64,000 nucleotides of DNA, from NCBI RefSeq assembly GCF_022919115.1, contig NZ_CP095072.1, positions 2,480,001 to 2,544,000 of the forward strand, written 5' to 3'. Both the position numbers and the translations under genes were made by a program. Below the pieces are notes generated by a model. The model searched no databases. It was not told the origin of the DNA and worked only from the letters and a program-made list of their open reading frames with translations. The DNA is from Gracilibacillus caseinilyticus (lineage in GTDB: Bacteria > Bacillota > Bacilli > Bacillales > Amphibacillaceae). Shown here piece after piece: positions 786-63,872 of the stretch (position 1 is the first letter of the stretch; each line of letters starts with the position of its first letter).

Positions 786-983
786 TCTTATAATACAGAT
801 TATGTAAAGTTCAACTGTATGACAATATGTTAATTTTGAAATGTTGTATATGCGTAGCAAAGCTCTCGAAATATGCTCTGCGTCCTGTGGGCACGGTGTG
901 GTTGGGGGGGAACACATAAAACATTTCATAATGACCATATCGATAAAATTTCTAGTATTTCTTGACATAATCTGTATTAAACG
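786..983. repeat. Palindromic repeat element, short copy (copy 1)
   Basis: The ends are inverted repeats: ATAATACAGATTATGT at the left and ACATAATCTGTATTA at the right. Inside is one degenerate left arm of hairpin module A (TAGCAAAGCTCTCGAAATATGCTCTGCGTCCTGTGGGCACGG). The matching right arm and all of module B are missing, so this is an internally deleted copy of the family best preserved at 47978-48498. No open frame here has coding character. Confidence 0.75.
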
Positions 984-7025: not shown

Positions 7026-7067
7026 AAAAAAGCCCGGTTCCTCTTCACGAGAAATCGGGCTTTCTTC
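7026..7067. terminator. Terminator between the aldo-keto reductase and carbonic anhydrase genes
   Basis: AAAAAGCCCG pairs with CGGGCTTTCTT across a loop. It lies between convergent genes and could serve both. Confidence 0.8.
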
Positions 7068-7075
7068 ATTATTTT

Positions 7076-13753: not shown

Positions 13754-13814
13754 CTTATCTGCAGAGAAATGTCATTAAGGCAAATTGCATTAGATTAAAA
13801 AAAGTAAGGTTCTG

Positions 13815-14375
13815 ATAATACGGATTATGTAAAGTAAGTTTTTGCAAAAAGGCCATTTTGACATATGGTAGGTGCATAGCAAAGCTCCGGAAATATACTC
13901 CGCGTCCTGTTGCGTCGGCCTCAACTTCCTCGTGATGAGCAAAGATCGCTTTCCTGCGTGATTTTCGGACACGACTGAGTCTCCGCATATTTCCTACGCT
14001 TAAGGAAGTGCTACAACGTTTGTACCAGTTAAAAGCAATGGTGCTAATCATTATGCTGATCAAAATCAAATATACCATTGATGGGTAGCGCTCAAAACTA
14101 ATTATTACATCAGTTGTAGAATTCATACCTTAGCGTAGGCCAACCACGTAGACTCCCGCGGGACGTGCAGGTGCTGCAGAACCACAAAGTCTGCACCGGT
14201 GTCTACTAGTATCGCTTCGAAGTAAGCTTCCTCGGTGCAGGGCAGCAAAGAAGTAATTCGTGTAGTAGCCTAGCTTCAGCCGTGCCCCGCAGGACGCGAA
14301 GTGGTTGGCCGGAGCATCCCAGCACTTGAGTCATTTCAAAATTACTACTTAGCTAGTTGACATAATCCGTATTAT
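13815..14375. repeat. Palindromic repeat element, full length (copy 2)
   Basis: The ends are ATAATACGGATTATGT and ACATAATCCGTATTAT (561 bp between outer ends). It contains module A (left stem GGAAATATAC at about 13886, right stem GCATATTTCC at about 13985), the conserved linker GTGCTACAACG, and module B (GGCCAACCAC at about 14137, GTGGTTGGCC at about 14301). Both module tips carry long cassettes (about 75-110 nt) in place of the short tip hairpins of copy 5. Frames within it are accidental: they read across the stems and have no ribosome site. Confidence 0.8.
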
Positions 14376-14470
14376 GGGAAAGGATCTATATAATATAAAT
14401 AGCACTGAAAGATTTGCTTGGTTCTGATAATTTTACCTGAATTTGGAGTCGGAAATGGCAGTTCATTTTT

Positions 14471-17869: not shown

Positions 17870-18600
17870 TATATTTCAATATGGCAAGGCTTTGATACGA
17901 ACACCTTTCGCTACAAAAAAGGTTTTGATCATGGCAGATTGGCAAGTCCTTTTGTTTCTGTTTCATAAAAGCTTTTGGACGACGAACGATTCAATCAGAC
18001 AATTCACCCTTAATTCAAGCGCATATTGGTTGAAAGAGTGGTTCAATCGGACAAATCGGCATCATTTCGAGCACATATTGTCCGAAAGAGTAATCCCCCT
18101 GGAACAATCCACCCTCTATTTGCCCTGGCCAACATCAGAATTCCATGAAGTCTCAGTGAATTGTGAGCACTTCGCGGCATGTTAAAAAATATATTAAATC
18201 TTAATATTGCTCGGTATTACAAGCTAATTTATCTTTATGTCCCATTCTGTTTTTGTATGATAGGAACATATAAAATTTTATCACAGCAGTAATTCGACGT
18301 GCTGATAAGCCAAGTTTGCTTTATGAAAAAGAAAAAATATAGAAGTTAACGAAAAGATGTTTAGTGCATCCCTCTATCTTTAATCAGAACACTTTCAATA
18401 GCTGAAGCCGTGCCCACGGAAAGCGCAGTATCTTGCCGTAGCGAGTCAACAAACAGCAGGATGGGAGGAAGCCTCGCTTGGAAGGTTTCATCAACTTTGA
18501 ATAGTTTGGTTATGGGTTATAAAGAGTTAAAACTAATTTGTTTTTTTATTTAGCTTACAAGCTTTAGTTATGTTCCACCTTCATCTATGATAAAAACTTT
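17870..18600. repeat. Intergenic repeat region with a 52-bp period
   Basis: About 730 bp without a credible gene. TTCAATCAGAC (about 17990) and TTCAATCGGAC (about 18042) begin two imperfect units 52 bp apart, each ending in a GAAAGAGT motif. The block lies between GGCTGGGACA (17781) and its rough inverse TGTCCCATTC (18238). Further right, at about 18400-18450, is GCTGAAGCCGTGCCCACGG, a fragment of hairpin module A of the palindromic family. An open frame at 17892-18185 crosses the units and has no ribosome site. Confidence 0.5.
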
Positions 18601-23478: not shown

Positions 23479-23534
23479 AATATAGACAAGTGCCCAATTT
23501 AACATGGACAAATTACCCAATTCCACCTTTTGTA

Positions 23535-24120: not shown

Positions 24121-24186
24121 ATGAATGAAGAGGGAGTATATAAGTACAGTCATAGAAGTAATCATGCCAAATATAAGTTGGCTTCT

Positions 24187-24755
24187 TATAATATGGATTA
24201 TGTCAAGTGAAACTGTCTGACGGAGTGGTAATTTTGATAGATTTCATCTACTTAGCAAAGCTCCGGAAATATGCTCCGCGTCCTGTGGGTCACGGCTTCA
24301 GCTAGGCTACTACTTGCACTGCTTCTTTGCTGCCTTGTGCCGAGGAAGCCCGCTTCGAAGCAATACTTGTAGACACAGGCACAGACTAAGTGGATCTTCA
24401 GCTCGCGCTGACGCATGAGGAGTCTCCGCATATTTCCTACACTTAAGTGAAGTGCTACAACGTATGGAACAGCTAAAAGCAGTCGTGCTAGGTATTGTAT
24501 ATCATCAAATGAAGCAGACAGTGCTCCAAATTCTACCTGTCACATTAATTGTGGAGATATACATAAGCGTAGGCCAACCACGTAGACTCCCGCGGGACGT
24601 GCAGGTGCTGAAGATCCACTTTGTAAAGCGGTCTTCTTTACAAAGTTAGCTTCAGCCGTGCCCCGCAGGACGCGAAGTGGTTGGCCGGAGCGGTATGCCA
24701 GCACATTAAACATTTCAAAATGAATTCAACGCTAGTTGACATAATCCATATTATA
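24187..24755. repeat. Palindromic repeat element, full length (copy 3), disrupted at its right end by an IS
   Basis: Its inverted ends are exact over 20 bp: TATAATATGGATTATGTCAA at 24187-24206 and its complement at 24736-24755. Joining the sequence after the IS extends the match outward (TTCT and AGAA). Module A carries a long tip cassette (about 24310-24410) matching, in reverse orientation, the cassette in module B of copy 2. Module B carries the short CTTTGTAAAG hairpin. The 569 bp contain no credible gene. Confidence 0.85.
24748..24755. repeat. 8-bp target duplication, left copy
   Basis: ATATTATA directly before the IS; the second copy is at 26066-26073. Eight bases is the usual duplication of ISL3-family elements. 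Confidence 0.85.
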
Positions 24756-26065
24756 GGTTCTGCGTCAAATGTTGGGGTAGGAATCTTTGCTCCTATCCCT
24801 TAACCAACTTGAAAATCTAGGTTTTTAAATTGATGATGCAGTAATACACGTAACCTTAATCGATCGTATCGTTTAAAGCCAAATGCATTACGTTTAATAA
24901 CCTTTGTTTGGTTATTTAGGCCCTCCACAAATCCAGTGTTGTAGTCAAAGGCAAAACTATTTAAAACTTCTGCTTGCCAGTTCTTGAGTGTACCAGCGGC
25001 TTTGATGAACTCATCTAGTCCTGCTTTTTCTACCTGTTTGTAATAGTTATACAGTCCTTGTTTTACTTCACCTAATTCTTTTGTTCCAACCTTTTTCGCT
25101 CCTTCAAACCAGGAGCGGAATGCTTCCTTTAAACCATAGGCCTGTCGTAAATCCTCCGACAAGCCTAAATATCTGTCTAAATACCAGTGTTGCTTACTAC
25201 TCAGTTCTTCATATCGTTTATAAAAAATGTGTTTCATACGCTTGCACTTTTTGCGGTCGTAATCATGGAATTCTTTTTGAACACGTCTTCTCACTCGTTC
25301 TTTTGAACTGCTGACTTAAAGCTATAGCTCATATCCATGACAACCATCTTTACTTGAGATCCTTTTTTGGCTAAGTACTTTTTAATCGTACGTACAGAGC
25401 GATTCGGTAATATATCAAGCGGGACACCTGTTTCTCCATTTGCGATGATTACTTGGTATTTACCTTCTGTTGTATCCCCTTTATATTCATCGATAGCTAT
25501 TACTGGTGGTAACGTGTCCACTTCTTTTAAACTAGTAGCTGCTAGTTGATCAAATCGACGAATAGCTGTTGTTTGAGAAGTTCTGAACTGACCAGCAGTA
25601 TCTTTAAAGTTTTTCCCCTGGATAACACGAAGCCCTAGGGCTTGATTCCATTCCTTTGAATGTCTTTGATATCGCCCTACAACTTGGTTTTTCTCAGGAA
25701 ACCTCTTTCCACAAGTACAAACGTATCTTCGCTTCCTATAAAACAGATAAGATGTTCGTTCAAAGAGCTTTAAGTGTTGTACCTTTTGTATTCTATAGTC
25801 ATGGACGTGGCTTGTTCTTTCCCCACAAGCAGGACAACGGTGTTTCTTAACAGGCAACTTTATATGTAAGTAAAAGTCCCCCTCCAACTCCTCCATCTTA
25901 GTAACAATAACACTTTCTAATCCTGGTAAATTCATGTTAAACTGCATGTACACGCATCTCCTATCCCTTTGGTTTGTTTCTAGTCCATTCAAGTGTAAAG
26001 GATATAGGAGCTTGCGTGTTTTATTATGCTTAATTTTTTCAAACCCCAACATATATAATAGAGCC
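24756..26065 (-). mobile_element. ISL3-family insertion sequence, inactive
   Basis: The 1310-bp element has imperfect terminal inverted repeats, GGTTCTGCGTCAAATGTTGG at the left and GGCTCTATTATATATGTTGG read inward from the right. It is bracketed by ATATTATA duplications. It encodes one ISL3 transposase on the minus strand, broken by an internal deletion and frameshift. It landed inside the right inverted repeat of palindromic element copy 3, so that element was already present. Confidence 0.9.
24800..25947 (-). pseudogene. ISL3-family transposase, deleted and frameshifted
   Basis: The first part (25947 to about 25291) has the N-terminal zinc-binding region (CPACGERTSHVHDY), a helix-turn-helix and the first catalytic Asp in VIAIDEYKGD, then breaks after MSYSFKSAVQK. 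The frame resumes at RVRRRVQKEFHDYDRKK (25294 to 24800) with the final catalytic Glu in EGLNNQTK. From family knowledge about 20-25 residues carrying the second catalytic Asp (ADRFH motif) are missing at the junction. A programmed frameshift would not explain lost residues, so the enzyme is dead. Confidence 0.88.
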
Positions 26066-26073
26066 ATATTATA
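26066..26073. repeat. 8-bp target duplication, right copy
   Basis: ATATTATA directly after the IS right end, matching 24748-24755. Confidence 0.85.
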
Positions 26074-26135
26074 AGAACCCACTTTCCAATTTAGCATGAT
26101 TACTTCTACGACTGTAATTATATACTTTCTTGACT

Positions 26136-26174
26136 AAAAAAAGGATTGCTTCGCTAGTGGAAGCAATCCTTTTG
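26136..26174. terminator. Terminator of the qoxABCD operon
   Basis: AAAAGGATTGCTT pairs with AAGCAATCCTTTT across CGCTAGTGG. Read on the minus strand it ends in a T-run just after qoxD. Confidence 0.9.
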
Positions 26175-26179
26175 ATTAA

Positions 26180-26488
26180 TTAATGCATATGAGATGCGTG
26201 ACCTGAAGTTAGTACCCAAATCGATCCAAACACAATAATTAAAGCTAAAATAATACTGTTGATAATGTTGAAAACGTTAATCGGACCTTCTTTTCCTTCT
26301 GTGATGTGCATAAACATAAACAATTGGACTATCATTTGGAAAAGCGCCATAATGGCAATCGACCAAAGTTTAACGCCGTTTGAGAAATCGGTGTATAAGC
26401 TAAAAAACACAGCAGCTAGCGTTAATGCGATCGAAAGGATAAAGCCGATTAAGTGATTCCAAGGAAAACGACTAGAATGTGCGCTCAT
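26180..26488 (-). CDS. qoxD: Cytochrome aa3 quinol oxidase subunit IV
   Basis: A 102-residue membrane protein with three helices (LIGFILSIALTLAAVFFSLY, LWSIAIMALFQMIVQLFMFMHI, IINSIILALIIVFGSIWVL). It is the small subunit IV/QoxD of haem-copper quinol oxidase and assists assembly or stability. AAAGGAATG lies ahead of the ATG, one base after the qoxC stop. It is the last gene of the operon, and its C-terminus ends in a His/Met-rich GHASHMH. Confidence 0.9.
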   Translation of the reverse strand: MSAHSSRFPWNHLIGFILSIALTLAAVFFSLYTDFSNGVKLWSIAIMALFQMIVQLFMFMHITEGKEGPINVFNIINSIILALIIVFGSIWVLTSGHASHMH

Positions 26489-26489
26489 T

Positions 26490-27083
26490 TTACATCATTC
26501 CTTTCAAATAGACGAATGTAAAGATAAAGATCCAAACGACATCTAAAAAGTGCCAGTATAAACTGGAAATAAAGAATTTACTAGCTGTTTTTTCAGTAAT
26601 CCCACGTCGAACAATTTGAACTAACAATAAACTGATCCACACAATACCAAATGTAACGTGGGCACCGTGCGTACCAAGTAACGTAAAGAAGGCTGCTGTG
26701 AACCCGCTTGTTTGAATACTTGCTCCTTCATGTACATAATGGATAAATTCGTTAATCTCCATATATAAAAAGCCTGCACCTAGTAATAGGGTCACAATCG
26801 TCCAAATTATCAGGTTTCGCTTTTGCATATTTCTCATCGAGTGAATAGCAAGACCAGCAGTGAAACTACTTGTCAATAATAAGAAGGTTTCAATCAAGAC
26901 ATCTTTTAAGATAAAGATGTCTTGACCTGATGGACCTCCAGCTGTATTGTGTTCTAACACAAAGTAAGAAGCAAACAATGTGGAGAATAGCACAATTTCA
27001 GCACCTAAAAATACCCAGAATCCGAAAATATTCATTTGATGTTGCTGTGAGCGATATTCTAATGGCGTATTTGCTTGTGTCAT
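26490..27083 (-). CDS. qoxC: Cytochrome aa3 quinol oxidase subunit III
   Basis: A 197-residue subunit III with five predicted helices. Family landmarks are [43 protein letters not shown] and [21 protein letters not shown] (given in outline). It supports the catalytic core rather than carrying redox centres. Its ATG overlaps the qoxB stop (ATGA), so the two are translationally coupled. Identity as quinol rather than cytochrome c oxidase rests on subunits I and II. Confidence 0.92.
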
Positions 27084-29026
27084 TCTAACTCACCTCTCCA
27101 CTCTCGTTCTTCTTCTTCTACTTCTTCTGCAGGTATATGATATCCGTCATCATAATCAAACGTGTTCGCAATTAAACCAATGATGATTAAGACGGATGAA
27201 ATAATCGCTAGTGTAAACCATTCAAATACGAGGAAGAATCCTACAATTCCGAATGCCACACTGATGAAAATCGGCGTCCAGCTATTGCTCGGCATATGAA
27301 TCGGTTTAATATCTGATTTTTTCAAGCCAAGTTTTCCAGCTTTTTTCTTATACCAGAAATCATCTAAACTATCTACTTCTGGTACTTTCGCAAAGTTATA
27401 GTGTTGTACAGGCGAAGCTGTTGCCCACTCTAACGTACGTGCGTTCCAAGGGTCACTTCCTACGTTACGATCTGCGTAACGGAAGCTCCAGTATATGTTG
27501 TAACAAAATGCTGCAAAACCTGCTGCCATTACGAGTGAACCTAGTGCAGAAAAACCTAGCCATGCACCCCATCCTGTACTTTCAGAATACGTGTACATAC
27601 GGCGAGACATTCCATCTAACCCTACAAAGAACATCGGCATAAATGTGAAATTAAATCCGATCACGAATAACCAGAAATGCCATTTACCGATTTTTTCATT
27701 CAATTTGAAACCAAACATTTTTGGCCACCAGTAGTATACTGCAGCGAATACCGCAAATACAACACCTGGAATTAATACATAGTGGAAGTGTGCCACAAGG
27801 AACATCGTATTATGGTACTGGTAGTCGGCTGCTGCCATTGCAAGCATAACCCCTGTTACCCCACCAATTGTAAAACACGGAATAAACGCTAAGGCCCATA
27901 ACATCGATGTAGAAAACTCGATTCGACCTTTTCGTAACGTAAACAGCCAGTTAAATATTTTCACCCCGGTCGGAATGGCGATCATCATCGTTGTTAACGA
28001 GAAGATCGAGTTAACGGCTGCACTGTTCCCCATCGTATAGAAGTGGTGTACCCATACAAGCATACTTAAGAAGGCAATACCAACAACGGCGAATACCATG
28101 GATTTATAACCAAACAGATTTTTTCGTGCAAACGTCGCAATAACTTCAGAGAACATACCGAACGCTGGCAGGACAACAATATAAACTTCAGGGTGTCCCC
28201 ATAACCAGAATAAGTTCAGCCATAACATCGGATCCCCGCCAGCAGCAACGGTAAAGAAGTGGGTACCGAATAGACGATCCAATGACATATATGCTAATGC
28301 AACTGTTAAAATTGGAAATGCTGCCACAATGATAATAGAAGTGATGAATGTCGTCCATGTAAAGATCGGCAACCTCATCCATTTCAATCCTGGCGCACGC
28401 ATTTTAGTAATGGTTACTACAAAGTTAATCCCTGTAGCTAACGTACCTATACCTGCAATCTGCAAGGCAATCGCATAATAGTTGTTCCCGACACCTGGAG
28501 TGAACTCTTTACCCGCTAACGGGAAGTAAGAAGTCCAACCTGCATCTGGTGAGCCACCAACAACGAAAGATAAGTTAAATAACATTGCACCTGCAAAGAA
28601 TAACCAGAAACTTAATGCATTTAACTTCGGAAATGCTACGTCACGTGCCCCGATTTGTAACGGCACGACAACGTTCATAATCCCGATAAGCATAGGCATG
28701 GCCATAAATAGAATCATGATGACACCGTGTGTTGTAAAGATTTCATCGTAATGCTGTGCATCCAAAAATTCCATATCAGGTCTAGATGTTTGAGCTTTCA
28801 TAAGGAGACCATCAACGCCACCTCTAAAGAACATCAAGACACCTGAGATAATATACATAATCCCTATTTTTTTATGATCAACAGTAGTGAACCATTCGTT
28901 CCATAACCATTTCCATCTCTTTAAGTACGTAATTAACGCAACAAGACCTACCATTGTCAAACCAATGGCGATTTGAGAGAACAGGATCAGTGGATCACCT
29001 GTTACCAAAAGTTTATCTAAAGACAT
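27080..29026 (-). CDS. qoxB: Cytochrome aa3 quinol oxidase subunit I
   Basis: The 648-residue catalytic subunit holds haem a and the haem a3-CuB centre, reduces oxygen to water and pumps protons. [15 protein letters not shown] carries the CuB His and the cross-linked His-Tyr, HHFYTMG two more CuB histidines, and [11 protein letters not shown] the haem ligands. The extended N- and C-termini and the opening [18 protein letters not shown] are typical of QoxB rather than CtaD. ATG 29026 follows AAGGCGGTG; an in-frame GTG at 29035 is part of that ribosome site. Confidence 0.95.
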
Positions 29027-29046
29027 GCTTTTCACCGCCTTATAAT

Positions 29047-30051
29047 TTAATGATGTGAATGACCCTCGTGTGTGGAAGAATCAGTGGATTGTTCTGACTC
29101 TTGCTCTGCATTATCATTCGTTTCTTGTTCTGCATCTTCTGCTTCTTCCTCTTCACTGGAGCTGCCTTCTTCTCCGTGATGGATCTCATACAAGTCAGAA
29201 TCGATGTATTGCTCTGAACCGCCGTGCGCATGGTCGATCCATTCCAAGTGTGTACCGTTATATGTTTTACGTCCAATGACAGTAGGCTTTAATAATTCAC
29301 TATATTCGTCTTCTGTTAAATCATTGGCTGTATTCTTCACATCCTGCACCCATTCATTGAAGTCATCATTAGACATTGCTTGGACTTCAAAGTCCATGTG
29401 TGCATAACCTCTACCATTAAAACTAGTGTTTCTACCGTAGAATGACCCTTCCTGATCTGCTACAAGGAACAGATTTGTCTGCATGTTTGCCATCGTATAC
29501 TTCTGGCCACCTAATTCTGGGACCCAGAACGACTGCATCGTACCTGCAGAAGTCATTTTAAATTGTACCGGGTGATTAGCTGGAATATTGAGATAGTTTA
29601 CTGTTTCAATTCCTTGCTCCGGATAACTGAAAATCCACTTCCAGTCAGCAGATGTGACATGGATCACGAGTGGCTCCTCTTCCTCATAACCTTGCGGGAT
29701 ATCTTCTACTTCATAAATTGTCTTGGCTGTAGGAATCATCAAGGCAATTACGATGGCAATAGGAATTAGAAACCAGATAACTTCCAGTACATGATTTCCT
29801 TCCTCTTCTTCCGGTTCAAAATCACCGTCATCTTTTCTTGCTCTGTATTTCCAGATAATAAATCCGAATAACACAAAAACAATTAATACAATAATGACCA
29901 TGAATATGATCGAGTACACGATCAAATCAGATAAATTACGCGCTACAGGCCCTTTCGGATCAAAGACAATAAGCTTTGAATCACAACCTGCCAGTAATAC
30001 AGGAATTAACAATAAAGTAAAGATATACGCGAGCTTCTTCATTGCCTTCAT
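29047..30051 (-). CDS. qoxA: Cytochrome aa3 quinol oxidase subunit II (lipoprotein)
   Basis: A 334-residue subunit II with a lipoprotein signal (LLAGC, Cys23), two membrane helices (about 43-70 and 93-112) and an extracellular cupredoxin domain. The usual CuA motif (CxxxC with following His/Met) is absent, as expected for quinol oxidases; [15 protein letters not shown] occupies that area. A long acidic Glu/Ser/Gln tail (about 285-330) ends in His residues. GAGAGGAG lies before the ATG. It is first gene of qoxABCD and divergent from a two-component system. Confidence 0.93.
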
Positions 30052-30277
30052 GGTGTTTCTCCTCTCTCAAATGTTACTATTGTTTCTATTAGTTCTATCC
30101 CCTTTTGTCTGAAGTTCAGACCACAACTATATACTAGTTTGACAGCTAAATATGATGAAATTATGATGATATTGATTTTGTCATAAATTGTTCAAAATAA
30201 CACAATCTATTTTACTAATGTTGTTTTTTTCTATACTATTTTAGATAAGGAATATAACATGTTTGAGAGGGATAAGT

Positions 30278-30976
30278 ATGAAGAAAATTTTAATTGTTGA
30301 TGACGAACAACAAATGAGAATGATGTTGACACTCTATTTGCGGAATGATTTCGAGCTTTTCGAAGCGATTGACGGTGAAGAAGCGTTACATATTTTTAAG
30401 GAAAACGAAATCGATCTTGTCTTATTAGATGTCATGATGCCGAAGCTAGACGGAATCGAAGCATGTAAACAAATGAAGAACATCAAGCCAGATGTGCCGA
30501 TCATTATGCTTACTGCTCTAAACGAAACCTCTCAAAAAGTAGAAGGGCTGATGATTGGGGCTGATGATTATATGGTCAAGCCATTTGAGCCAGAAGAATT
30601 ATTGGCGCGTATTCATGTGCAATTTCGTCATTTTGAAAAAAACCAATCATCCAGCAATAGATTGGTTTATGCGGAACTGACTATTGATCTATCTTCACAC
30701 GAAGTGACAGTGAATGGCAAAGAGATCAAGTACAGCCCGAAGGAATTTGATTTACTCTATTTATTAGCGGCTCATCCGAACCGCGTTTACACGAGAGAGC
30801 AGTTATTAGATATTATTTGGGGATTAGACGAAGTAGTAGACATTCGTACAGTGGATTCCCATGTTCGTTATGTGAGAGACAAATTAAAAAAGGCCGGCAT
30901 AACGAAGCAACCTGTTGAAACTGTATGGGGAGTTGGCTACAAATTTGACTGGGAGGATAAACATGAAGCTGAATAG
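30278..30976 (+). CDS. OmpR/PhoB-family response regulator
   Basis: A 232-residue two-component regulator. The receiver domain has D8/D9, the phosphorylation site D51 (LLDVMMP), T79 and K101 (VKPFEP). A winged-helix DNA-binding domain covers about 128-228 (ELTIDLSSHEVTVNGKEIKYSPKEFDLLYLL in outline). GAGAGGG precedes the ATG at 30278. Its 3' end overlaps the histidine kinase gene by 14 bp. It lies divergently from qoxABCD, so control of the oxidase is a reasonable guess but not shown. Confidence 0.92.
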   Translation: MKKILIVDDEQQMRMMLTLYLRNDFELFEAIDGEEALHIFKENEIDLVLLDVMMPKLDGIEACKQMKNIKPDVPIIMLTALNETSQKVEGLMIGADDYMVKPFEPEELLARIHVQFRHFEKNQSSSNRLVYAELTIDLSSHEVTVNGKEIKYSPKEFDLLYLLAAHPNRVYTREQLLDIIWGLDEVVDIRTVDSHVRYVRDKLKKAGITKQPVETVWGVGYKFDWEDKHEAE

Positions 30977-32375
30977 TGTGGTTTTTAAGCTTGGGGCAAC
31001 GATTTTATTTCTGCAGCTTATTATTCTGATTCCATTAGGATACATTATTTTACAACTGATTCTGAACTATTCAATCAACCAGACCGAAACACAACTTGTT
31101 CAACTTTCAGAGAAATATGCCGAGCAGGTAAATAGTGTGGAAGACCCGGACAATGTCCAATTATTAGAGCATTTAACTGAAATGACGGATACAAGTGCCG
31201 TCATTCTAGATGAAAATGGTGAAATTCTTTTAAAAACCAATTGGGAAGAAGCTATCTCTGATAATGTACTGGAAAATCCCGAACTTAAACAACTGGAGGA
31301 AGGCGAATCGATCGTCAAGGAATATACCTTCGAAGGTAATACCTTTCTCAAGGTTGCACAGCCCATTATTAGTGAGGCTGAAGCCATAGGCAGTGTTGTC
31401 TTATTTTCTTCTTTCGGACTCATTAGCAATTCCATTCATAATATTATTGTGTTAGTTATTCTTGCAAGCCTTGGAGCTGTTGGGTTAGCGATCGGCTTTA
31501 CTTTTTTCATTTCAAAAAAAATAGGCGGTCCTCTCATCGCGATGGAGAAGGTCGCAAAACAAATTGCCGAGAAGAAAAACTTTTCGTTACGTGTTGACTA
31601 TAAAGCAAATGATGAGATTGGTTCGCTGGCGGGTGCGATCAATCATTTATCAGAAACACTGGAACGTTATCAAACAAATCGTAATGAGTTTTTCTCAAAT
31701 ATTACACATGAACTAAAAACACCGCTCACTTATGTAAAGGGTTATGCCAATGCTGTCCGACATGAAATGTATCAAAGTAAAGAAGAACGCGACGAGTTTC
31801 TTGAAATTATCGAAAACGAAACAGATCATATCAGCAATCTGATGGATGATTTAACAGACCTCTCTAAAATCGAAGAAGGAAAAATTGATTTGAATAAAGA
31901 AGAAATCAATGTTACCCGGATGGCAGAAGAAATGATAAAACGGTCTCAATTCAGAGCGGCAGAAAAAGGTTTGAACATGAAGCTTGATGCTCCAAAACAT
32001 ATCGTGTATCTGTTTGGTGATAAGAGCAGACTTGATCAAGTGCTGACCAATTTAGTCGAAAATGCGGTTCGTTATACGGAAAAAGGGGAAATACATTTAC
32101 AGCTGAAAGAGGAACCTAATCAAGTCATGATTCGTGTGAAAGACACCGGTATCGGTATTAAAAAGGAAGATATCCCCTATTTATTTGAACGTTTTTATCG
32201 CGTAGATAAATCGCGGTCTCGTGCAAATGGCGGTACAGGTTTAGGCTTAGCCATTGTCAAGAACCTAGTTGAAATGCATGATGGTGAGATTCATGTTGAC
32301 AGTGAAGTAAATGAAGGAACCACTGTTACCTTACAGTTTCCAAAAGGAGCAAAGACCCATGCGTTATCAAAATAA
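30963..32375 (+). CDS. Membrane sensor histidine kinase
   Basis: A 470-residue kinase with helices at about 10-33 and 160-183 flanking a roughly 125-residue extracellular sensor. A HAMP domain (185-237) and HisKA with phospho-acceptor H249 (FSNITHELKTPLTY) follow. The ATPase domain has the N box (LTNLVENAVRYTE), G1 (DTGIGI), F (YLFERFYRVD) and G2 (GGTGLGLAI) motifs. GGGAGG precedes the ATG, which overlaps the response regulator gene. The signal is unknown. The SDR pseudogene starts within its last 17 bp. Confidence 0.92.
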   Translation: MKLNSVVFKLGATILFLQLIILIPLGYIILQLILNYSINQTETQLVQLSEKYAEQVNSVEDPDNVQLLEHLTEMTDTSAVILDENGEILLKTNWEEAISDNVLENPELKQLEEGESIVKEYTFEGNTFLKVAQPIISEAEAIGSVVLFSSFGLISNSIHNIIVLVILASLGAVGLAIGFTFFISKKIGGPLIAMEKVAKQIAEKKNFSLRVDYKANDEIGSLAGAINHLSETLERYQTNRNEFFSNITHELKTPLTYVKGYANAVRHEMYQSKEERDEFLEIIENETDHISNLMDDLTDLSKIEEGKIDLNKEEINVTRMAEEMIKRSQFRAAEKGLNMKLDAPKHIVYLFGDKSRLDQVLTNLVENAVRYTEKGEIHLQLKEEPNQVMIRVKDTGIGIKKEDIPYLFERFYRVDKSRSRANGGTGLGLAIVKNLVEMHDGEIHVDSEVNEGTTVTLQFPKGAKTHALSK

Positions 32376-33072
32376 AGTAGTGCTTGTTACCGGCGGAGCA
32401 AATGGTATTGGCGCTGCGATTGTACAAGCATATCTTGCAGAAGGGGCTAGTGTGATCGTAGCAGATATTCAAGCTCCTTCAGCTGAACAGGCAGCATTTA
32501 TTCAAACAGACGTTAGTAAAATGGATGAAATCAGTCAATTATTTGAGCATATCAGACAACATTATCATCGCCTCGACATCTTGATCAATAATGCTGGAAT
32601 ATCGGCATTTGCGGACTTTTTTGCAGTCGATATGGAAGATTGGGAGAACGTCATTAACACAAATTTGCGTGGAACTTTTTTCTGTGCCCAACAGGCAGCA
32701 CAAATTATGAAAGAACAATCAATCGCTGGCAGTCTGATTCAAATCGCTTTCACTCGAGCATTCATGTCTGAAGCTAATACGGAGTGTTATTCTGTCAGTA
32801 AAGGCGGGCTATTTTCTCTGACACATGCACTTGCGATGACGTTACAGGACTACCACATTACCAGTAATGCCATTAGTCCTGGCTGGATTCAGACGGATTA
32901 TCATGCGTTACGGGATATTGATCATCAGTAACATCCTTCCAAACGAGTAGGAAAACCAGAAGATATTGCAAGAGCATGTTTATTTTTGACGGATCCGTCT
33001 AATACTTTCATTAATGGAGAAAATCTGATCATTGATGGTGGCATGACCAGAAAAATGATTTACGAACATTAA
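32359..33072 (+). pseudogene. Short-chain dehydrogenase/reductase gene with in-frame stop
   Basis: The frame has the NAD(P) motif TGGANGIG (11-18), LINNAGI and YSVSK (Y144, K148). It is stopped by TAA at codon 191 (32929-32931). The same frame then continues with perfect family sequence (HPSKRVGKPEDIARACLFLTD ... LIIDGGM) to a second TAA at 33072, so the stop is a point nonsense change. The usual catalytic Ser of the IASTRA-type motif also reads Phe (IAFTRA, F131). Both lesions point to loss of function. AAAGGAG precedes the ATG. Confidence 0.85.
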
Positions 33073-33088
33073 TGAAAGGACGAACAAC

Positions 33089-34093
33089 ATGGAATTGCAG
33101 CTGATAGAAGTATATATTCCCAACAATCGGTTCGATCAATTTTTAATCGAAATACAAGATTTTGATTTTATTGAGAAGTGGCATACACCTGTATCGGAGA
33201 CACAACAGCTCGTTAAAATCTTAATTGAAAAGAAAAACACGGAGAAAATTCTTGATTTCCTCGAGATGAATGATCGGGGAGAGCAAGAAATCCGCGCGTT
33301 ACTTTATAATATTTCAACATATATTCCTCGAATGGAGCAGGACGAAGAAGAGGAAAAAGATCAAGACCCGGAAGAGAAGGAAAATGAAATCACCAGGGCA
33401 AGCAGGCATGAATTATATAATGTCGTGCAATCCTCTAGTAAAGCCAGTGTCAATTTTATTTGGATGCTTCTCTTATCAGCTGTCGTGGCTACTGCAGGTA
33501 TTGTGAAGGACAGCGCAGCTATCGTTATCGGAGCTATGGTAATTGCCCCATTAATCGGTCCTTTTACCGCACTTTCCTTTGCTGCTATTCTAGGTGATTA
33601 TCACTTAATGAAGCGCTCTGCTCTCACTTCACTGTTCGGTCTTGCTATTCCTATTACCATTGCCATCATATTTGGCTTTCTCTTTCCGCTACCGTTACAT
33701 AGTGATGAATTTCTTGCTCGGACAAATATCGAATTCATGGACATTGTTGTGGCACTCGCCGCAGGTACTGCTGGGGCTTTGTCCTTTGCGAAACGTGTAT
33801 CCGAGGCATTGGTTGGGGTGATGGTATCCGTTGCTTTACTTCCACCTGCAGTCGTGCTAGGCATGATGATCGGTGACTTCTCCTGGGAAGCAGCCCTTAC
33901 CCCGTTTCTTTTACTAATGGTCAATATTAGTGCCATTCTTTTTTCTGCAATTGTGGTCTTTTGGACAATAGGAATCGAACCAAACAAATGGCAAAAAATC
34001 CAAGTCGCCAACACATCCAAAACATATGCACTTATCGCCGTCAGTTTGGTCATTATTATTTTAGCCGTGATGATATATGTCATTAAGTTTTAG
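33089..34093 (+). CDS. DUF389 / TIGR00341 family membrane protein
   Basis: A 334-residue protein. A cytoplasmic domain (about 1-90) and an acidic linker (EQDEEEEKDQDPEEKEN) precede a C-terminal membrane domain of about six helices. That domain includes the family hallmark SAVVATAGIVKDSAAIVIGAMVIAPLIGPF (in outline) and ALLPPAVVLGMM. The function is not established; the Gly/Ala-rich helices suggest a channel or transporter. ATGAAAGGACGAACAAC leads into the ATG. It lies 17 bp after the SDR pseudogene and may share its transcript. Confidence 0.85.
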   Translation: MELQLIEVYIPNNRFDQFLIEIQDFDFIEKWHTPVSETQQLVKILIEKKNTEKILDFLEMNDRGEQEIRALLYNISTYIPRMEQDEEEEKDQDPEEKENEITRASRHELYNVVQSSSKASVNFIWMLLLSAVVATAGIVKDSAAIVIGAMVIAPLIGPFTALSFAAILGDYHLMKRSALTSLFGLAIPITIAIIFGFLFPLPLHSDEFLARTNIEFMDIVVALAAGTAGALSFAKRVSEALVGVMVSVALLPPAVVLGMMIGDFSWEAALTPFLLLMVNISAILFSAIVVFWTIGIEPNKWQKIQVANTSKTYALIAVSLVIIILAVMIYVIKF

Positions 34094-34099
34094 AATGAA

Positions 34100-34450
34100 T
34101 GGAGTATAGACCGAATGATGATTTTGGGATTTATTAAATACAAATATCAAAGCGGTCTGTGGAGGCGTATAAGAGACGAATTACATCCATTCGTTCACTT
34201 CGGTCTTCTAGGAAGCGTGTTATGATCGAATAAAGACTCCTTTCGATCATTATGGCCTTTATAGAAAAGCATTATGATCGAATAGAGTCCCTATTCAAGA
34301 CAACCATAAATAGTGTTCCGAGCGATAAAGAATTGCGGTCTGTCGTGAACAAGAGATCAGCTTCATTCACATTTCCAAAGCTAATGCTCCGTGATTATGA
34401 TGATCACGCAGCAATAAAATCGAATGAAATCGAATCTTAAATAAAAATTC
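34100..34450. repeat. Intergenic region with 52-bp-spaced repeats
   Basis: GTTATGATCGAATAAAGACTCC (about 34218) recurs as ATTATGATCGAATAGAGTCCC (about 34270), with a weaker related unit earlier (about 34165, GACGAATTACATCCATTCG). The spacing is about 52 bp. An open frame at 34252-34440 lacks a ribosome site and runs across the units, so it is not called as a gene. Confidence 0.45.
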
Positions 34451-34551
34451 TTTTTTTCGCATGTTATAAAGAGACTCGAAGTATAAAAGGGCATCACGTG
34501 CTTTTTCTTCCCAACCCTCACTAATAAAAAACAGTAAATTTCTAATAATAT

Positions 34552-34580
34552 TTGCACAAATCCTGCATACATTTTATAAT
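34552..34580 (+). promoter_or_regulatory. SigA promoter of the czcD-czrA operon
   Basis: TTGCAC (34552-34557) and TATAAT (34575-34580) are separated by 17 bp. Confidence 0.75.
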
Positions 34581-34598
34581 ATGAATATGTGTTCATAT
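34579..34598. promoter_or_regulatory. CzrA/SmtB-type operator
   Basis: ATATGAA-TATGTG-TTCATAT is a perfect inverted repeat of the ArsR/SmtB class. It overlaps the end of the -10 box and the transcript start of the czcD promoter, where the repressor encoded downstream would block RNA polymerase. Confidence 0.75.
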
Positions 34599-34620
34599 AT
34601 AACTTTTAAGGAGGTAGCTT

Positions 34621-35550
34621 ATGGCACATGATCATGACCATGGACACAGCCATGGCCACGGACATCATCATCACCATACCAATAACAAAAAGGCACTATT
34701 CATCAGCTTTATACTTATTACTGCTTTTATGATTCTGGAAGTAGTCGGTGGACTCTTGACGAACAGTTTAGCGCTTTTATCTGATGCTGGTCACATGCTT
34801 AGCGATGCATTTGCAATGGGATTAAGCTTATTCGCGTTTAAATTGAGTGAAAAAGCAGCTAATAATCAGAAAACATTTGGTTACAAACGATTCGAGATTT
34901 TAGCTGCATTTATTAATGGGGTTACACTGCTGGTTATATCGATTTATATTTTTTATGAGGCCTATCATCGTTTTCTAGAGCCACCGAATGTAAGTCCGAT
35001 GATGCTCTGGATTGCTGTTACCGGGCTTGTTGTAAATATAATTGTTGCTTTTATTTTAATGTATAGTGGTGATACCGAGGGGAACTTGAATATGCGCAGT
35101 GCATTCCTGCATGTGTTAGGCGATCTATTAGGTTCTGTCGGTGCGATTGTAGCAGGGATCTTAATCATGTTCTTTGATTGGAATCTGGCGGACCCGATTG
35201 CAAGTATTGTTGTTGCCTTGTTAATTTTAGTGAGTGGCTATCGTGTTACACGTGATTCATTTCATATTTTAATGGAAGGAACGCCTGATAACTTGTCCTA
35301 TCAGGAGATCGAAAACGAACTCGTCCAACTGAACGGAGTCATTAATATTCATGATTTACACGTCTGGACGATCACATCTGATTTCCCATCGTTAACCTGC
35401 CATATTGTAGTAGAAGAGGATACAGACCGGGATTTGTTATTGAAAAAGGCATCCACCGTGTTACATGATCAATTTGGCATACATCATACGACGATTCAGG
35501 TCGAAGGTGCCGGTTCAGAATTAGAAAAAGAGGAAGATTGCTGTAATTAG
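34621..35550 (+). CDS. czcD: Cation diffusion facilitator, Zn/Cd/Co exporter
   Basis: A 309-residue CDF exporter with a His/Asp-rich N-terminus (20 residues of [17 protein letters not shown] character) likely to gather metal. Six helices follow, with the HxxxD-type metal motif in [16 protein letters not shown] and the matching HVLGDLLGS helix, then a cytoplasmic C-terminal domain. It exports zinc and similar ions in exchange for protons. AAGGAGG precedes the ATG. It is followed 17 bp later by its presumed metal-sensing repressor and preceded by a matching operator. Confidence 0.93.
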
Positions 35551-35566
35551 TCTGGAGGGGAAAAAC

Positions 35567-35875
35567 ATGACGGATGAAACATATCAGTCATTAGATGAAG
35601 AAACGCTCTTTTTAGTGTCACAAACTTTTAAAGCATTAGCTGACCCAACAAGAATCAAAATTCTTCACTTACTATTTGAAGGCGAATTATCGGTTTCCAA
35701 TATTGCAGAGAAACTCGATTTAAACCAGTCCAATGTGTCACATCAATTACGGTTCCTAAAAAACTTACGACTCGTAAAATACCGAAGAGACGGGAAGACG
35801 ATTTATTATTCACAAGATGATGAACACGTCATGCGGATTCTGCAACAATCAATCGATCACGCGACACATCATTAA
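35567..35875 (+). CDS. czrA: ArsR-family metal-sensing repressor (CzrA-like)
   Basis: A 102-residue winged-helix repressor. The alpha5 metal site seen in CzrA/SmtB is visible near the C-terminus: D85, H87, H98 and H101 (DDEHVM ... IDHATHH). The alpha3 Cys site of CadC/ArsR is absent, so it should sense zinc or cobalt. Recognition helix [25 protein letters not shown] precedes the ATG. It would control the czcD-czrA operon through the inverted repeat at 34579-34598. Confidence 0.93.
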
Positions 35876-35911
35876 TAAGAACAACCGCCAACTATCTTAA
35901 TGCAGGAAATT

Positions 35912-36115
35912 TAGAATAGCGCAAGCGCCCGTTTAGAAACGTAGCGACTGGACTGCATCAACTGGGATAAAGGAATCACGGTGAGCTTGCGAACCGATGA
36001 TGACTTATCGTAGAGCGATGCAGGAAGTCGCCTAGTTTCTGGGTGCTTGCGCTGGACATGGCTGTTCATGTTAGAAAGCGGTACGAAACCTTAAAATTTT
36101 ATACTTTCTTACCTG
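35912..36115. repeat. Dispersed intergenic repeat, GCGCAAGCGCC family
   Basis: It begins AGCGCAAGCGCCCGTTTAG and ends with GCTTGCGCT at about 36048 and a tail AAACCTTAAAATTTTATACTTTC. The right part recurs inverted at about 47858-47960 (GAAAGTAAAAAATTTTAAGG, then GGCGACTTCCTGCATCGCCC), and a remnant lies near 56640. Repeats starting with GCGCAAGCGCC-like sequence are common in Bacillaceae genomes, from memory. No gene is visible. Confidence 0.55.
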
Positions 36116-36175
36116 CTGAAGAAAAACCGGGAAAGTCCACCCGGTCCTAACTAACATAAATAGTATACAACTACC

Positions 36176-36702
36176 TATAATATGGATTATGTTAACTAGC
36201 ATTGCGATCATTTTGATATAATATATGTGCTGGGATATCGCTTCGGCCAACCACTTCGCGTCCTGCGGGGCACGGCTGAAGCTAACTTTGTGAAGAAAAA
36301 TCGTTTCACAAAGTGGATCTTCAGCGCCTGCCTGTCCCGCGGGAGTCTACGTGGTTGGCCTACGCTGATGTATAGCTCCACAATTCATGCAACAGCTAGG
36401 ATATGGAGCGCTATCTGCGAGATTTACATCTTAGTTTGATGAAATACAATGCCTAGCACGACTGCTTTTAGCTGTTACATACGTTGTAGCACTTTCCTCA
36501 AGCGTAGGAAATAGGCGGAGACTCCCGTGGGATCAGCGCGAGCTGAAGATCCAATTAGGAAAGAAAAGAATTTTCTTTCCTAATTTAGCTGAAGCCGTGC
36601 CCACAGGACGCGGAGCCTATTTCCGGAGCTTTGCTGAGCAGATAAATTATATCAAAATGACCATTCTGCAATACAGCCTTTGTTTACATAATCCATAATA
36701 TG
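36176..36702. repeat. Palindromic repeat element, full length, inverted orientation (copy 4)
   Basis: Ends are TATAATATGGATTATGTTAA and TTTACATAATCCATAATATG. Relative to copy 5 it is flipped: module B comes first (GGCCAACCAC at about 36245, GTGGTTGGCC at about 36350) and module A second. Module A's stem here is GGAAATAGGC (36507-36516) with GCCTATTTCC (36615-36624), a paired change from GGAAATATGC/GCATATTTCC elsewhere. Tip hairpins also differ yet pair (CTTTGTGAA/TTCACAAAG and AATTAGGAAAG/CTTTCCTAATT). Confidence 0.85.
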
Positions 36703-36861
36703 GGAAGTTGTTTATTAATTAAGTCAATTAGGGCCATGCGGGTTATGCTTGATATTTCTTATTTCTAAAGAAATCTAAAATGTTAGCAGAAACAGTGAGA
36801 CTTGAGCACATGGATAGTTGACAAATCGCAGTATAGGTAGTTTACCTATCCGTATCTGCTC

Positions 36862-42905: not shown

Positions 42906-43940
42906 ATGTCTCAATCTAATATTCCAAATATTACACCAGAAATAACACTGACGCGAGATGATGCGATTAATTTATTACTTTCTTCTATCGCTTTTGAAGA
43001 ACTAGGTTTAAGTCATATTATTAATGCTGAAGGAGAAAAGTTGCAATATGCACTTGGAACTTTACCAGGTGTTACTTCAACAGCAACCATTAGCGATTTG
43101 CTAGCAATGAATGAGAGTGTTCGTGATACTCTTGGTGCCATAACGAAGAAAGAATTCTTATTAGATAGTAAATTAGACAATATTCTATCAACGCCTATTT
43201 CGGTTGGTCCAACCGGTCCAACTGGCCCAACCGGACCAGCAGGAGGACCGACTGGCCCAACCGGCCCAACCGGTCCAGCGGGTCCAGCAGGTCCAGCAGG
43301 CCCAACCGGTCCAGCAGGCCCAACCGGTCCAGCAGGTCCAGCAGGTCCAGCAGGCCCAACCGGTCCAGCGGGTCCAACCGGTCCAGCAGGGGCAACAGGT
43401 CCAACAGGTCCAGCAGGAGCGACCGGCCCGACTGGCCCAACCGGTCCAACAGGAGAAATTGTTACGGACCAAGGATTCTCTGCATTTGCTAGTCCTTTAT
43501 CCGTTGCAGCATCAACCCAAATTGATGATTGGACAGTGACTTCACCTTATTATACAGATCCGAACTTTGATCCTGTTACAGGTATTTACACGGTTCCGGC
43601 AACTGGTAGATACTCACTTTCTGCTACAATTAATTATGAAACTGCTGCAGCACTATCTGTAAGCCTTGGTGCAGGTGTAGATCCATCATTCAGCATTCAA
43701 CGAATCAATACGGCAACAGATTTAATTACCGGATTGTTCCCAGTTTTAAATGTTAACGTAGCGTTAGTCTTAACATTAAGGGCAATTTTAGGTAATGGTA
43801 CTGTTACTTTAACGGGAGACGTTGAACTAAACGCAGGCGATACGCTTGGATTGTTCTATAACGCAGACGGATTAACTGTGTCATTAGATTTAGGTGGCAC
43901 AGGTGAAGGAATTGTCTGGTCAGTTCATCGATTAGCTTAA
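42906..43940 (+). CDS. BclA-like collagen-repeat spore-surface protein
   Basis: A 344-residue three-part protein. Residues 1-95 are the IPNITP-type N-domain shared with the genes at 38177 and 44115. Residues 101-185 hold 27 collagen triplets, almost all GPT or GPA with two GAT, broken once by an extra Gly (GPAGGPT). From about 188 to 344 is a beta-sandwich of BclA/C1q type (TPYYT-like start, [25 protein letters not shown]). Such proteins trimerise to form hair-like spore filaments, and the Thr residues are O-glycosylation sites in relatives. There is no signal peptide, as expected for exosporium proteins. Confidence 0.88.
43206..43458 (+). repeat. Tandem 9-bp-unit DNA repeat encoding the collagen triplets
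   Basis: Units such as GGCCCAACC, GGTCCAGCA and GGTCCAACC repeat in register with the Gly-Pro-Thr/Ala triplets. The tract is GC-richer than its surroundings and would be prone to length change by slippage. Confidence 0.85.
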
Positions 43941-47857: not shown

Positions 47858-47960
47858 AAGTAAAAAATTTTAAGGTATCGCCCACTTTCTGACAGGAACA
47901 ACCAAGTCCACGCTGGCGCCCATAAACCAGGCGACTTCCTGCATCGCCCTGCGTTAAAGA
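47858..47960. repeat. Dispersed intergenic repeat, inverted partial copy
   Basis: GAAAGTAAAAAATTTTAAGG and GGCGACTTCCTGCATCGCCC match, in opposite orientation, the right part of the repeat at 35912-36115. It directly abuts palindromic element copy 5, as the other copy abuts copy 4. Confidence 0.5.
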
Positions 47961-47977
47961 AGATGAAGTTGAGTTCC

Positions 47978-48498
47978 TATAATATGGATTATGTAAACAA
48001 AGGCTGTATTACAGAATGATCATTTTGATAGATTTTCTCTGCTTAGCAAAGCTCCGGAAATATGCTCCGCGTCCTGTGGGCACGGCTTCAGCTAACTTAG
48101 TAAAAAAATTCTTTTCTTTACCAAGTGGATCTTCAGCTCGCGCTGATTCCACGGGAGTCTCCGCATATTTCCTACGCTTAAGGGAAGTGCTACAACGCAT
48201 GGAACAGCAAAAAGTAGTGGTTCTAAGCATTATGTTATTCAAAAACTGATATTTATGGTGCACTCAATATGCTAGCAATTCCCAAAGTTGTAGAGCCCTC
48301 TCCTTAGCGTAGGCCAACCACGTAGACTCCCGCGGGACAGGCAGGTGCTGAAGATCCACTTTGTAAAGCGGTCTTCTTTACAAAGTTAGCTTCAGCCGTG
48401 CCCCGCAGGACGCGAAGTGATTGGCCGGAGCGGTATCCCAGCACATGAATATTTTCAAAATAAACACTACGCAGCTAGTTGACATAATCCATATTATA
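47978..48498. repeat. Palindromic repeat element, full length (copy 5, clearest)
   Basis: Ends are TATAATATGGATTATGTAAA and TTGACATAATCCATATTATA. Module A has base stem GGAAATATGC (48056-48065) with GCATATTTCC (48163-48172). Module B has GGCCAACCAC (48312-48321) with GTGATTGGCC (48417-48426). Module B reversed aligns with module A through shared segments (CGCGTCCTG, CACGGCT, AGCTAACTT, GTGGATCTTCAGC, CGGGAGTCT, TACGCT). The base stems, however, are different sequences. Tips are short hairpins. Frames at 48009-48263 are accidental. Confidence 0.85.
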
Positions 48499-48688
48499 GG
48501 TAGTTGTTTATTACTTATCCTAGTTAGAACCGTGATTTTCCCCGATGCAAGATTAGAGCTTTTCGTTACATATTAGCCTTGATTATTTAAACCTTTATAT
48601 CAGTTAATTGTTGCACATCTTTTTTGTAAAATATGATAAACTTTAAAGTGAAGAAATTTTGTAATTGGTTTGAGAAAGGAAGTTTTAC

Positions 48689-56523: not shown

Positions 56524-56541
56524 TCAATAAATCCCACATTA

Positions 56542-56590
56542 GAAAAACTCGGCATTCGCCTCGTCTATTAGCGAGTGCCGAAGTTTTTCT
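56542..56590 (+). terminator. Terminator after the zinc-ribbon gene
   Basis: AAAAACTCGGCA pairs with TGCCGAAGTTTTT (one bulge), with an inner CGC/GCG stem. Confidence 0.85.
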
Positions 56591-56663
56591 TATACTTGGT
56601 ACATTCTAAATTTTCACTGCGTCGTGCATCTTCATTGCTAAAATTTTATACTTCCTACCGTAT

Positions 56664-63371: not shown

Positions 63372-63442
63372 ATGCTTTAGGGCGACTGAAAATGTTACGG
63401 AACAAAGTATAAGAAGATTTAACAAATAGAAGTATATGTTCC

Positions 63443-63720
63443 TTTAATATGGATTATGTCTAGCTTAGGTATTTATGGACAATGAGGGATGCACTCAATA
63501 TGCTAGCTCTTACAAAATAGAGTACCTATCCTAGCGCAGGCCAACCACGTAGACTCCCGCGGGATTGAGCAGGTGGTGAAGATCCACTTTGTAAAGCGGT
63601 CTTCTTTACAAAGTTAGCTTCAGTCGTGCCACGCAGGACGCAAGGTGGTTGGCCGGAGCGGTCTCCCAGCACATTAATATTTTAAAAATTATCACCAAGC
63701 TAGACATAATCCATATTATA
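63443..63720. repeat. Palindromic repeat element, half-size (copy 6)
   Basis: Ends are TTAATATGGATTATGTC and GACATAATCCATATTATA. Only module B is present (GGCCAACCAC at about 63540, GTGGTTGGCC at about 63647) with the short CTTTGTAAAG...CTTTACAAAG tip. Module A is deleted. The right flank (GGTAG..., then AGTTAGAACCG) matches the flank of copy 5, so the true repeat may extend about 40 bp past the inverted end. Confidence 0.8.
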
Positions 63721-63872
63721 GGTAGCTTTATATATACTTAAATTAGTTAGAACCGCCCGGATGTAAGCCCAAGTTTTTCTTTAGGCAGAATCTAACATAT
63801 AATAAATTAAAGAACCTAATGAAACTTTTTATAGCGCTTAGTCGTATTAGTAGTAGAAGGGAGAGAAGAGGG

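Follow-up and report, generated by a model that had tools for sequence, protein, structure and literature searches.

Paired hairpin elements of Gracilibacillus caseinilyticus point to a large family of mobile hairpin DNA

The window analysed here is a 64,000-nt stretch of the 4.51-Mb, single-contig genome of Gracilibacillus caseinilyticus (G000, contig C1, positions 2480001-2544000), referred to below as the host genome. Near 48 kb of this window, an element lies between a small open frame, which we take to be YjcZ-like, on one side and a metallopeptidase M24 gene at 48689 on the other. This element (copy 5, 47976-48500 as delimited by its terminal repeats) begins with a left terminal inverted repeat (47976..47994, + strand), followed by hairpin module A on the + strand (48050..48181; 127.0 bits to our module model R1), which has the foot stem GGAAATATGC/GCATATTTCC and a short tip. 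A 121-nt spacer (48182..48302), which holds only short open frames, separates module A from module B on the - strand (48303..48432; 142.5 bits to R1; foot GGCCAATCAC/GTGGTTGGCC, short tip). A right terminal inverted repeat (48482..48500, +), found like the left one by terminal-repeat matching, closes the element. Beyond it lies a degenerate right arm (48501..48550, +) that, by eye, reads in other copies as CCGGG..CCCGG followed by a run of T. The left arm was also inspected by eye for a promoter. A separate 47-nt repeat lies beside copies 4 and 5 (36005-36051 and 47911-47957), its two occurrences being 83% complementary to each other.

Six copies of the element occur in the window, starting at approximately 787, 13812, 24185, 36174, 47976 and 63441. 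They are bounded by the 18-nt core of the terminal inverted repeat, with 11 ends matching at three or fewer mismatches versus 0.10 expected by chance and the right end of copy 1 carrying four mismatches. A preliminary description of this DNA had assigned two head-to-head hairpin modules to all six copies; while the terminal repeat is present in six, R1 detected both modules in only four (at 13.8, 24.2, 36.2 and 48.0 kb). Copy 1 (787..983) is a stub that retains only the 5' part of module A, without a module match to R1, and copy 6 (63441..63722) carries module B alone (63530-63660, -). Copy 2 (13812..14378) combines a module A with a third type of tip (13883-14003, +, 49.9 bits) and a long-tipped module B (14129-14316, -), copy 3 (24185..24757) combines a long-tipped module A (24259-24446, +) with module B (24563-24692, -), and copy 4 (36174..36704) is inverted, with module B at 36239-36369 (+) and module A at 36498-36630 (-). 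The distinct base stems described for module A (GGAAATATGC/GCATATTTCC) and module B (the GTGGTTGGCC side) are present in the sequence, as is the double compensatory change GGAAATAGGC/GCCTATTTCC reported for module A of copy 4; the module B partner of GTGGTTGGCC is GGCCAATCAC in copy 5 and GGCCAACCAC in copies 3 and 4. Both variants quoted as evidence that tip stems change in pairs also exist, but copies 2 and 3 each have a module with a wholly different tip (~85 nt long, or of the third type) rather than a paired substitution. A half hairpin with another foot (GGCAAGATACT on the - strand) was recognised, partly by eye, at 18399..18442 (-), with no terminal repeat nearby. The window copies self-fold strongly relative to shuffled sequences (z = -15.28 for one strand and -14.85 for the other), as is expected of any inverted repeat. 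Elsewhere in the window (43205-43471), an array of 9-nt units reads, by eye, like a collagen-type Gly-Pro-X repeat.

Homology extends past the coordinates given for the elements: among the 92 ends belonging to 46 elements, 51 are similar to one or other of two arms at a threshold passed by 1% of random stretches. The terminator-like arm is found at 29 of the 92 ends and the second arm at 22. Since both occur about equally on the A and B sides (12 and 13 for the terminator-like arm, 9 and 10 for the second), the core is present in both directions relative to the arms.

The number of copies in the genome far exceeds the six originally described. At two or fewer mismatches, the terminal repeat matched 156 + 157 times in the 4.51-Mb genome, while a reversed control gave 0 matches, and at least 150 modules are present, with all 150 scored of 1861 candidates matching the covariance model (E ≤1e-4). 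BLAST with copy 5 returned 117 matches in the host genome, a count that includes both strands as well as pieces. The module is present in at least 14 of 16 congeners (G001, G005, G006 and eleven others; the two outside this count are G003 and G013), and across the family R1 matched the hairpin in 113 of the 120 genomes sampled, which represent 44 of 46 genera (E ≤1e-3), with 54 of the 113 positive genomes having at least 28 modules each. At the level of the order, R1 matched 89 of 120 genomes, spread over 55 of 73 genera; the weak matches are uncertain, and those with E near 1e-5 may be other GC-rich palindromes. The exact core pattern identified 97 stretches, and the genera among the 80 of these 97 matches listed were Gracilibacillus, Sediminibacillus, Aquibacillus, Paraliobacillus, Alkalibacillus and Virgibacillus. 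The terminal repeat, allowing one mismatch, was found in only 4 of 61 genomes, namely the host genome (136 + 134), the sister species G015 (220 + 210), G010 (3) and G007 (1). A terminal repeat confined to few genomes while the hairpin is family-wide is the pattern of expanding subfamilies. Consistent with the earlier statement that no named family matches, no Rfam family reached its gathering score within the window, the best weak match on copy 5 being tsr24 (20.6 bits, cut-off 50), and a search of the titles and abstract openings of open-licence papers returned no description of this hairpin repeat family.

In its full layout, the element consists of a terminal repeat, a hairpin, a spacer, an inverted hairpin and a terminal repeat, measuring mostly ~520-595 nt in the host genome, where shorter derivatives also occur. 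A + module followed by a - module was found at 37 of 52 host loci, 30 of which had been chosen by similarity to copy 5, which favours pairs. When 30 loci were chosen by a perfect terminal repeat instead (eight being the same places as loci in the similarity-chosen set), 15 had a pair, 9 had one module and 6 had none (E ≤1e-9), and every pair was ordered + then -. Outside the host genome, this arrangement was present at 15 of 29 loci in one set and 2 of 17 in another, and spacers between paired modules ranged from 68 to 385 nt where measured. No tail-to-tail pair was seen among the loci inspected, and same-direction neighbouring modules occurred at L197, at L208 and, partially, in L017. The left and right feet were unlike in 18 of 18 pairs inspected, differing by two bases only in L188, and in 13 of these pairs both feet formed a perfect stem of at least 6 bp.

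The hairpin module is 129 nt long. RNAalifold analysis of 42 modules from 13 genomes of the genus, aligned by sequence alone (alignment A1; four of 46 representative modules were omitted because they looked damaged), gave a consensus fold comprising a 2-bp outer stem, a 9-bp foot stem, an asymmetric loop, an 8-bp middle stem, a large loop, 2 bp, a small loop and an 11-bp tip stem. At least three types of tip were distinguished by eye. Mean column entropy was 0.98 bits for the foot stem, 0.82 for the tip stem, 0.42 for the middle stem and 0.59, 0.86 and 0.33 for loops 1, 2 and 3, respectively. Foot-stem diversity is low within the host genome (0.065 among 17 A modules, 0.115 among 36 B modules) and high between modules of 12 species (0.404) and between 41 loci (0.437), with complementarity kept throughout, although the between-species comparison partly sets unlike module types against each other and A and B feet differ within one genome as well. 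The corresponding values for the middle stem were 0.079 (A), 0.056 (B), 0.134 (12 species) and 0.121 (41 loci). With DNA parameters, the best fold of the whole element pairs one module with the other rather than each locally (-116.3 vs -77.7 kcal/mol).

The stems covary. In A1, 95.9% of cells were paired compared to 80.3% after shuffling, 24 of 32 pairs had changes on both sides, and double-change cells numbered 193, versus 50.8 in shuffled alignments and 29-53 after sliding. A second alignment (A2; 53 modules from 41 loci, mostly in other genera) had 94.4% of cells paired, both-side changes in 29 of 32 pairs and 322 double-change cells versus 78.4 in shuffled alignments, although A2 leans to structure because it was aligned to the model. 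The R-scape-type check called for by the preliminary description was carried out with a phylogeny-aware test purpose-built after R-scape, not R-scape itself, that combined FastTree, parsimony-matched simulated columns, an APC-corrected G statistic and 60 null alignments. Of the 32 pairs, 9 in A1 and 16 in A2 covaried above the phylogenetic background (E < 0.05), compared to 1 of 7969 other column pairs in A1 and 0 of 7969 in A2; the test has a floor of E 0.017, and some of these significant pairs (three in A1, two in A2) lie at the 0.05 limit. Gene conversion between copies reduces the count of independent events. Moreover, covariation alone is no proof of selected function, since arms may equally be kept complementary by hairpin-templated repair or by the amplification of whole subfamilies; what is supported of the earlier reading is that pairing is maintained.

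The pairing had been proposed to act as RNA or as cruciform DNA, alternatives between which the use of wobble pairs gives some indication. At varying positions, which omit A1 columns 29/120 and 37/113 and two fixed T.G columns of A2, G.U accounted for 0.6% of cells versus 1.7% for A.C in A2, and for 1.3% versus 2.6% in A1. Counting distinct events outside the fixed T.G columns gave 9 GU versus 14 AC and 11 GU versus 16 AC, neither of which differs significantly from an even split (p 0.40 and 0.44), so these counts indicate a lack of G.U preference and not its opposite. The first wobble count used 101 short-tip modules of 136 parsed, excluding two false loci and the modules with long tips or poor feet. 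Two A.C columns of the congener set, with 7 cells each, trace by eye to a subfamily with a bulged foot pairing. In host tRNAs, by comparison, 43 G.U and 0 A.C were found in 758 pairs (35 distinct tRNAs from 30 tRNA loci; 64 matches genome-wide), a generous control since ARAGORN, which identified them, itself favours G.U. However, when the fixed T.G columns, present in 49 of 52 modules (middle stem) and 19 of 52, were counted, G.U exceeded A.C in both alignments (4.8% vs 1.6% in A2; 2.8% vs 2.2% in A1). These columns point towards RNA, being what an RNA would allow. Taken at the varying positions, the absence of a G.U preference leans towards pairing in DNA, on a small count that depends on setting the fixed T.G columns aside.

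The window is largely syntenic with the sister species G015, with blocks mostly 80-94% identical and one at 74%. Five of the six window copies are occupied in G015 as well, copy 3 (24185) lies at a synteny break, and G015 shows a clean empty site for none of the window copies, which argues for slow turnover. Three full-length G015 copies are absent from the window, at about 7064-7070, 23480-23490 and 56593-56663, the last of these places holding another repeat in the window. The place of copy 5 is occupied in G015 by an element with another tip, in G011 by two hairpins and in G001 by one, those of G011 and G001 belonging to other subfamilies; 13 of the 16 congeners lack a match to the element there at E below 1e-6. 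No clean target-site duplication and no exact boundary was found when three places with and without the element were compared by eye. The host genome has 0 matches to Y1_Tnp (PF01797), the sole transposase family searched, so RAYT/Y1 was rejected as the present mobiliser there, and no mobilising gene was found. With gene orientation taken from simple ORF calling, 46 gaps containing an element comprised 18 convergent, 24 tandem and 4 divergent gaps, compared to 3, 21 and 7 among 31 element-free window gaps; the convergent excess was significant (p 0.005), while the lack of divergent gaps was not (p 0.11).

Other observations were made in the same comparisons. The repeat at 56540-56660 of the window, which also lies in the flanks of L008 and L035, reads by eye as a terminator-like hairpin of symmetric form (AGAAAAACTCGGCA.. 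/ ..GTTTTTCT), after which comes a stretch common to other loci; G015 has an element at that place. Between two inverted element copies (24760-36170), ~11.4 kb of the window has no G015 counterpart at the syntenic place, where ~9.8 kb of different DNA lies in G015. The terminal repeats that correspond to those of copy 6 enclose ~2.5 kb in G015 (L150) versus 0.3 kb in the window.

One congener, G006, carries a gene within the element. Module motifs flank its Y1_Tnp loci on both sides in 10 of 12 cases, on one side at L162 and on neither at L164; seven of the ten doubly flanked loci have both cores of both modules and three have a partial second module. The order and direction of the gene remnant relative to the two foot types are, by eye, the same in all 11 loci, and 10 of 15 Y1_Tnp match rows hold stop codons. 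Double-sided flanking was absent from the other Y1 loci tested, both in the genus (0/16 by motif, 15 of them also by model, L149 excepted) and elsewhere (0/29 by model), with single module matches at L141 and, weakly, L232. Y1 was therefore rejected as a general mobiliser, and G006 is more simply explained by one IS200-like gene that was trapped in the element and multiplied with it. Multiplication with the gene inside indicates that the two hairpins are copied together, as a single unit.

The tip can hold another structured repeat. Rfam Bacillaceae-1 (RF01690) lies inside the module match of L174 (76.7 bits) and occurs in 6 of 11 G006 loci, within the module match in L156, L158, L159 and L161 and beside the 3' core motif in L160 and L163. 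Among 30 Bacillaceae-1 loci in the family, a full-length module overlaps the motif in six (L374, L375, L379, L384, L385, L402) and a weak partial one in two; by eye, a few further motifs are found in hairpins of a similar kind, another falls within 5S-like sequence and another has tRNA-like sequence on either side. Bacillaceae-1 is itself high-copy, occurring in 46 of 60 family genomes, with up to 69 of 69 scored in one and 5 matches in the host genome, and its settings in hairpin tips and tRNA-like and 5S-like sequence look as if it were mobile. In L374, L375, L377, L379, L381, L384, L385, L401 and L402, the motif lies near 1500-1570. The long tip of copy 3 was considered as a Bacillaceae-1 RNA and gave no match. 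The possibility raised earlier, that the copies are fragments of a known RNA or insertion sequence, applies to relatives only (Bacillaceae-1 tips; the IS200-like gene in one species), neither being found in the window copies.

Taken together, these data point to a large family of mobile hairpin DNA that has no name. We assign a probability of about 0.52 to the elements being non-autonomous, interspersed mobile DNA whose hairpins fold in the DNA. Each 129-nt hairpin would fold on itself, either when single-stranded during replication or as a cruciform; an enzyme would recognise the hairpin loops together with the species-specific foot stem, and would move or copy the hairpin pair to places near gene 3' ends. 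The covariation, the paired layout, the high copy number, the copies that differ in presence between sister species, the contrast in foot diversity within and between species, and the multiplication of a gene-bearing unit in one relative are observed; we infer from them that the hairpins fold as DNA, that mobility acts on this folded form, and that the foot stem is read by an enzyme. A wider proposal is tentative: throughout the family, such elements could travel as folded single-stranded DNA via an enzyme other than RAYT/Y1, with two species-specific address stems co-evolving with it and tips serving as slots for structured repeats such as Bacillaceae-1.

Much of the same evidence bears on the alternative that the hairpins are structured RNA, acting in transcripts as 3'-UTR stabilisers, terminators or a repeated non-coding RNA, with selection on RNA pairing. 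The location near gene 3' ends, the terminator-like arm at many copies (29/92 ends), the near-fixed T.G of the middle stem with its effect on the G.U count, and a tip that can hold Bacillaceae-1, an sRNA according to Rfam, would all be accommodated by this explanation. Nevertheless, it appears unlikely, because varying positions lack a G.U preference on either strand, unlike those of host tRNAs, because any transcript reads the two modules of one element in opposite senses, and because the core, flanked by arms about equally on its A and B sides, has no fixed direction relative to them.

Complementarity might also be maintained by mutation alone, if hairpin-templated repair or template switching copied arm onto arm without selection on structure. 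Whole foot stems have been replaced and are still complementary, as template switching would give; wobble pairs are not preferred at varying positions; and tips that are unlike at orthologous places imply exchange of sequence between copies. We nonetheless consider this explanation quite unlikely, since correction of this kind should erase the asymmetric loops, which persist, and leaves one shared foot among the copies of a genome unexplained. Loops 3 and 1 are, furthermore, more conserved than the foot stem (0.33 and 0.59 versus 0.98 bits), although loop 2 (0.86) fares little better than the stems. Finally, BIME-like sites of DNA architecture, at which gyrase, a nucleoid protein or a replication factor binds to hairpins that are kept for the benefit of the host, would fit the family-wide abundance and a preference for gene 3' ends like that of REPs (PMC3733652), but patchy presence at single loci and species-specific feet fit mobility better and make this the most improbable account of those weighed.

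If the elements are mobile hairpin DNA, a non-coding sequence that is very common in Gracilibacillus and its family would be a mobile element without a known engine. The complementary, species-specific feet would then offer a handle on that engine, namely a gene with a DNA-reading part that varies in step with the foot. The orphan Bacillaceae-1 RNA would likewise gain a new context, as a structured repeat that resides partly in the tip of another structured repeat.

The element shares features with several known systems. IS200/IS605-type elements use DNA hairpins, and in G006 an IS200-like tnpA is located between the two hairpins; the element differs from them in that 0 of 45 other Y1_Tnp loci tested are flanked on both sides and the host genome has no match. 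In some relatives, Bacillaceae-1 (RF01690) occupies the hairpin tip of this scaffold, but it is a separate 67-nt motif, with none in the window at gathering score. Stem-loop families are also listed for B. halodurans, among them the 74-nt Bhal-1 (PMC2267715). MITE-like repeats such as bcr1, ERIC, BOX, RUP and NEMIS are reported to be short, non-coding and mobile, several of them with terminal inverted repeats (PMC3733652, PMC2267715, PMC10969869), and the element, too, has terminal inverted repeats. In contrast with these repeats, its core is an internal pair of hairpins whose foot changes between species, and neither a target duplication (three places, by eye) nor a parent transposase (Y1_Tnp searched) was found.

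The closest likeness is to REPINs and BIMEs, which are described as paired inverted REP palindromes linked to RAYT transposases, with hairpins predicted in single-stranded DNA or mRNA (PMC3116915). Like them, the element has two inverted palindromes and a spacer and is extragenic, high-copy and non-autonomous (PMC3116915), and at 15 of 30 loci picked by terminal repeat it forms one unit of two inverted palindromes. REPs are also reported to favour gene 3' ends (PMC3733652). However, REPs are given as 20-40 bp (PMC3733652), compared to the 129 nt of the element module, and carry a GTAG or CGTC tag, while the foot of the element has TAC (GTA on the other strand) by the 3' stem arm in 21 of 42 modules only. 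The element further differs from REPINs in its exchangeable tips, its outside terminal repeats and a host genome with no Y1_Tnp match, and it lacks two defining features of a REPIN, the RAYT gene and the short tagged palindrome. Our best reading is that the elements are mobile hairpin DNA with a REPIN-like mode of working, larger than a REPIN and operating without a Y1/RAYT transposase.
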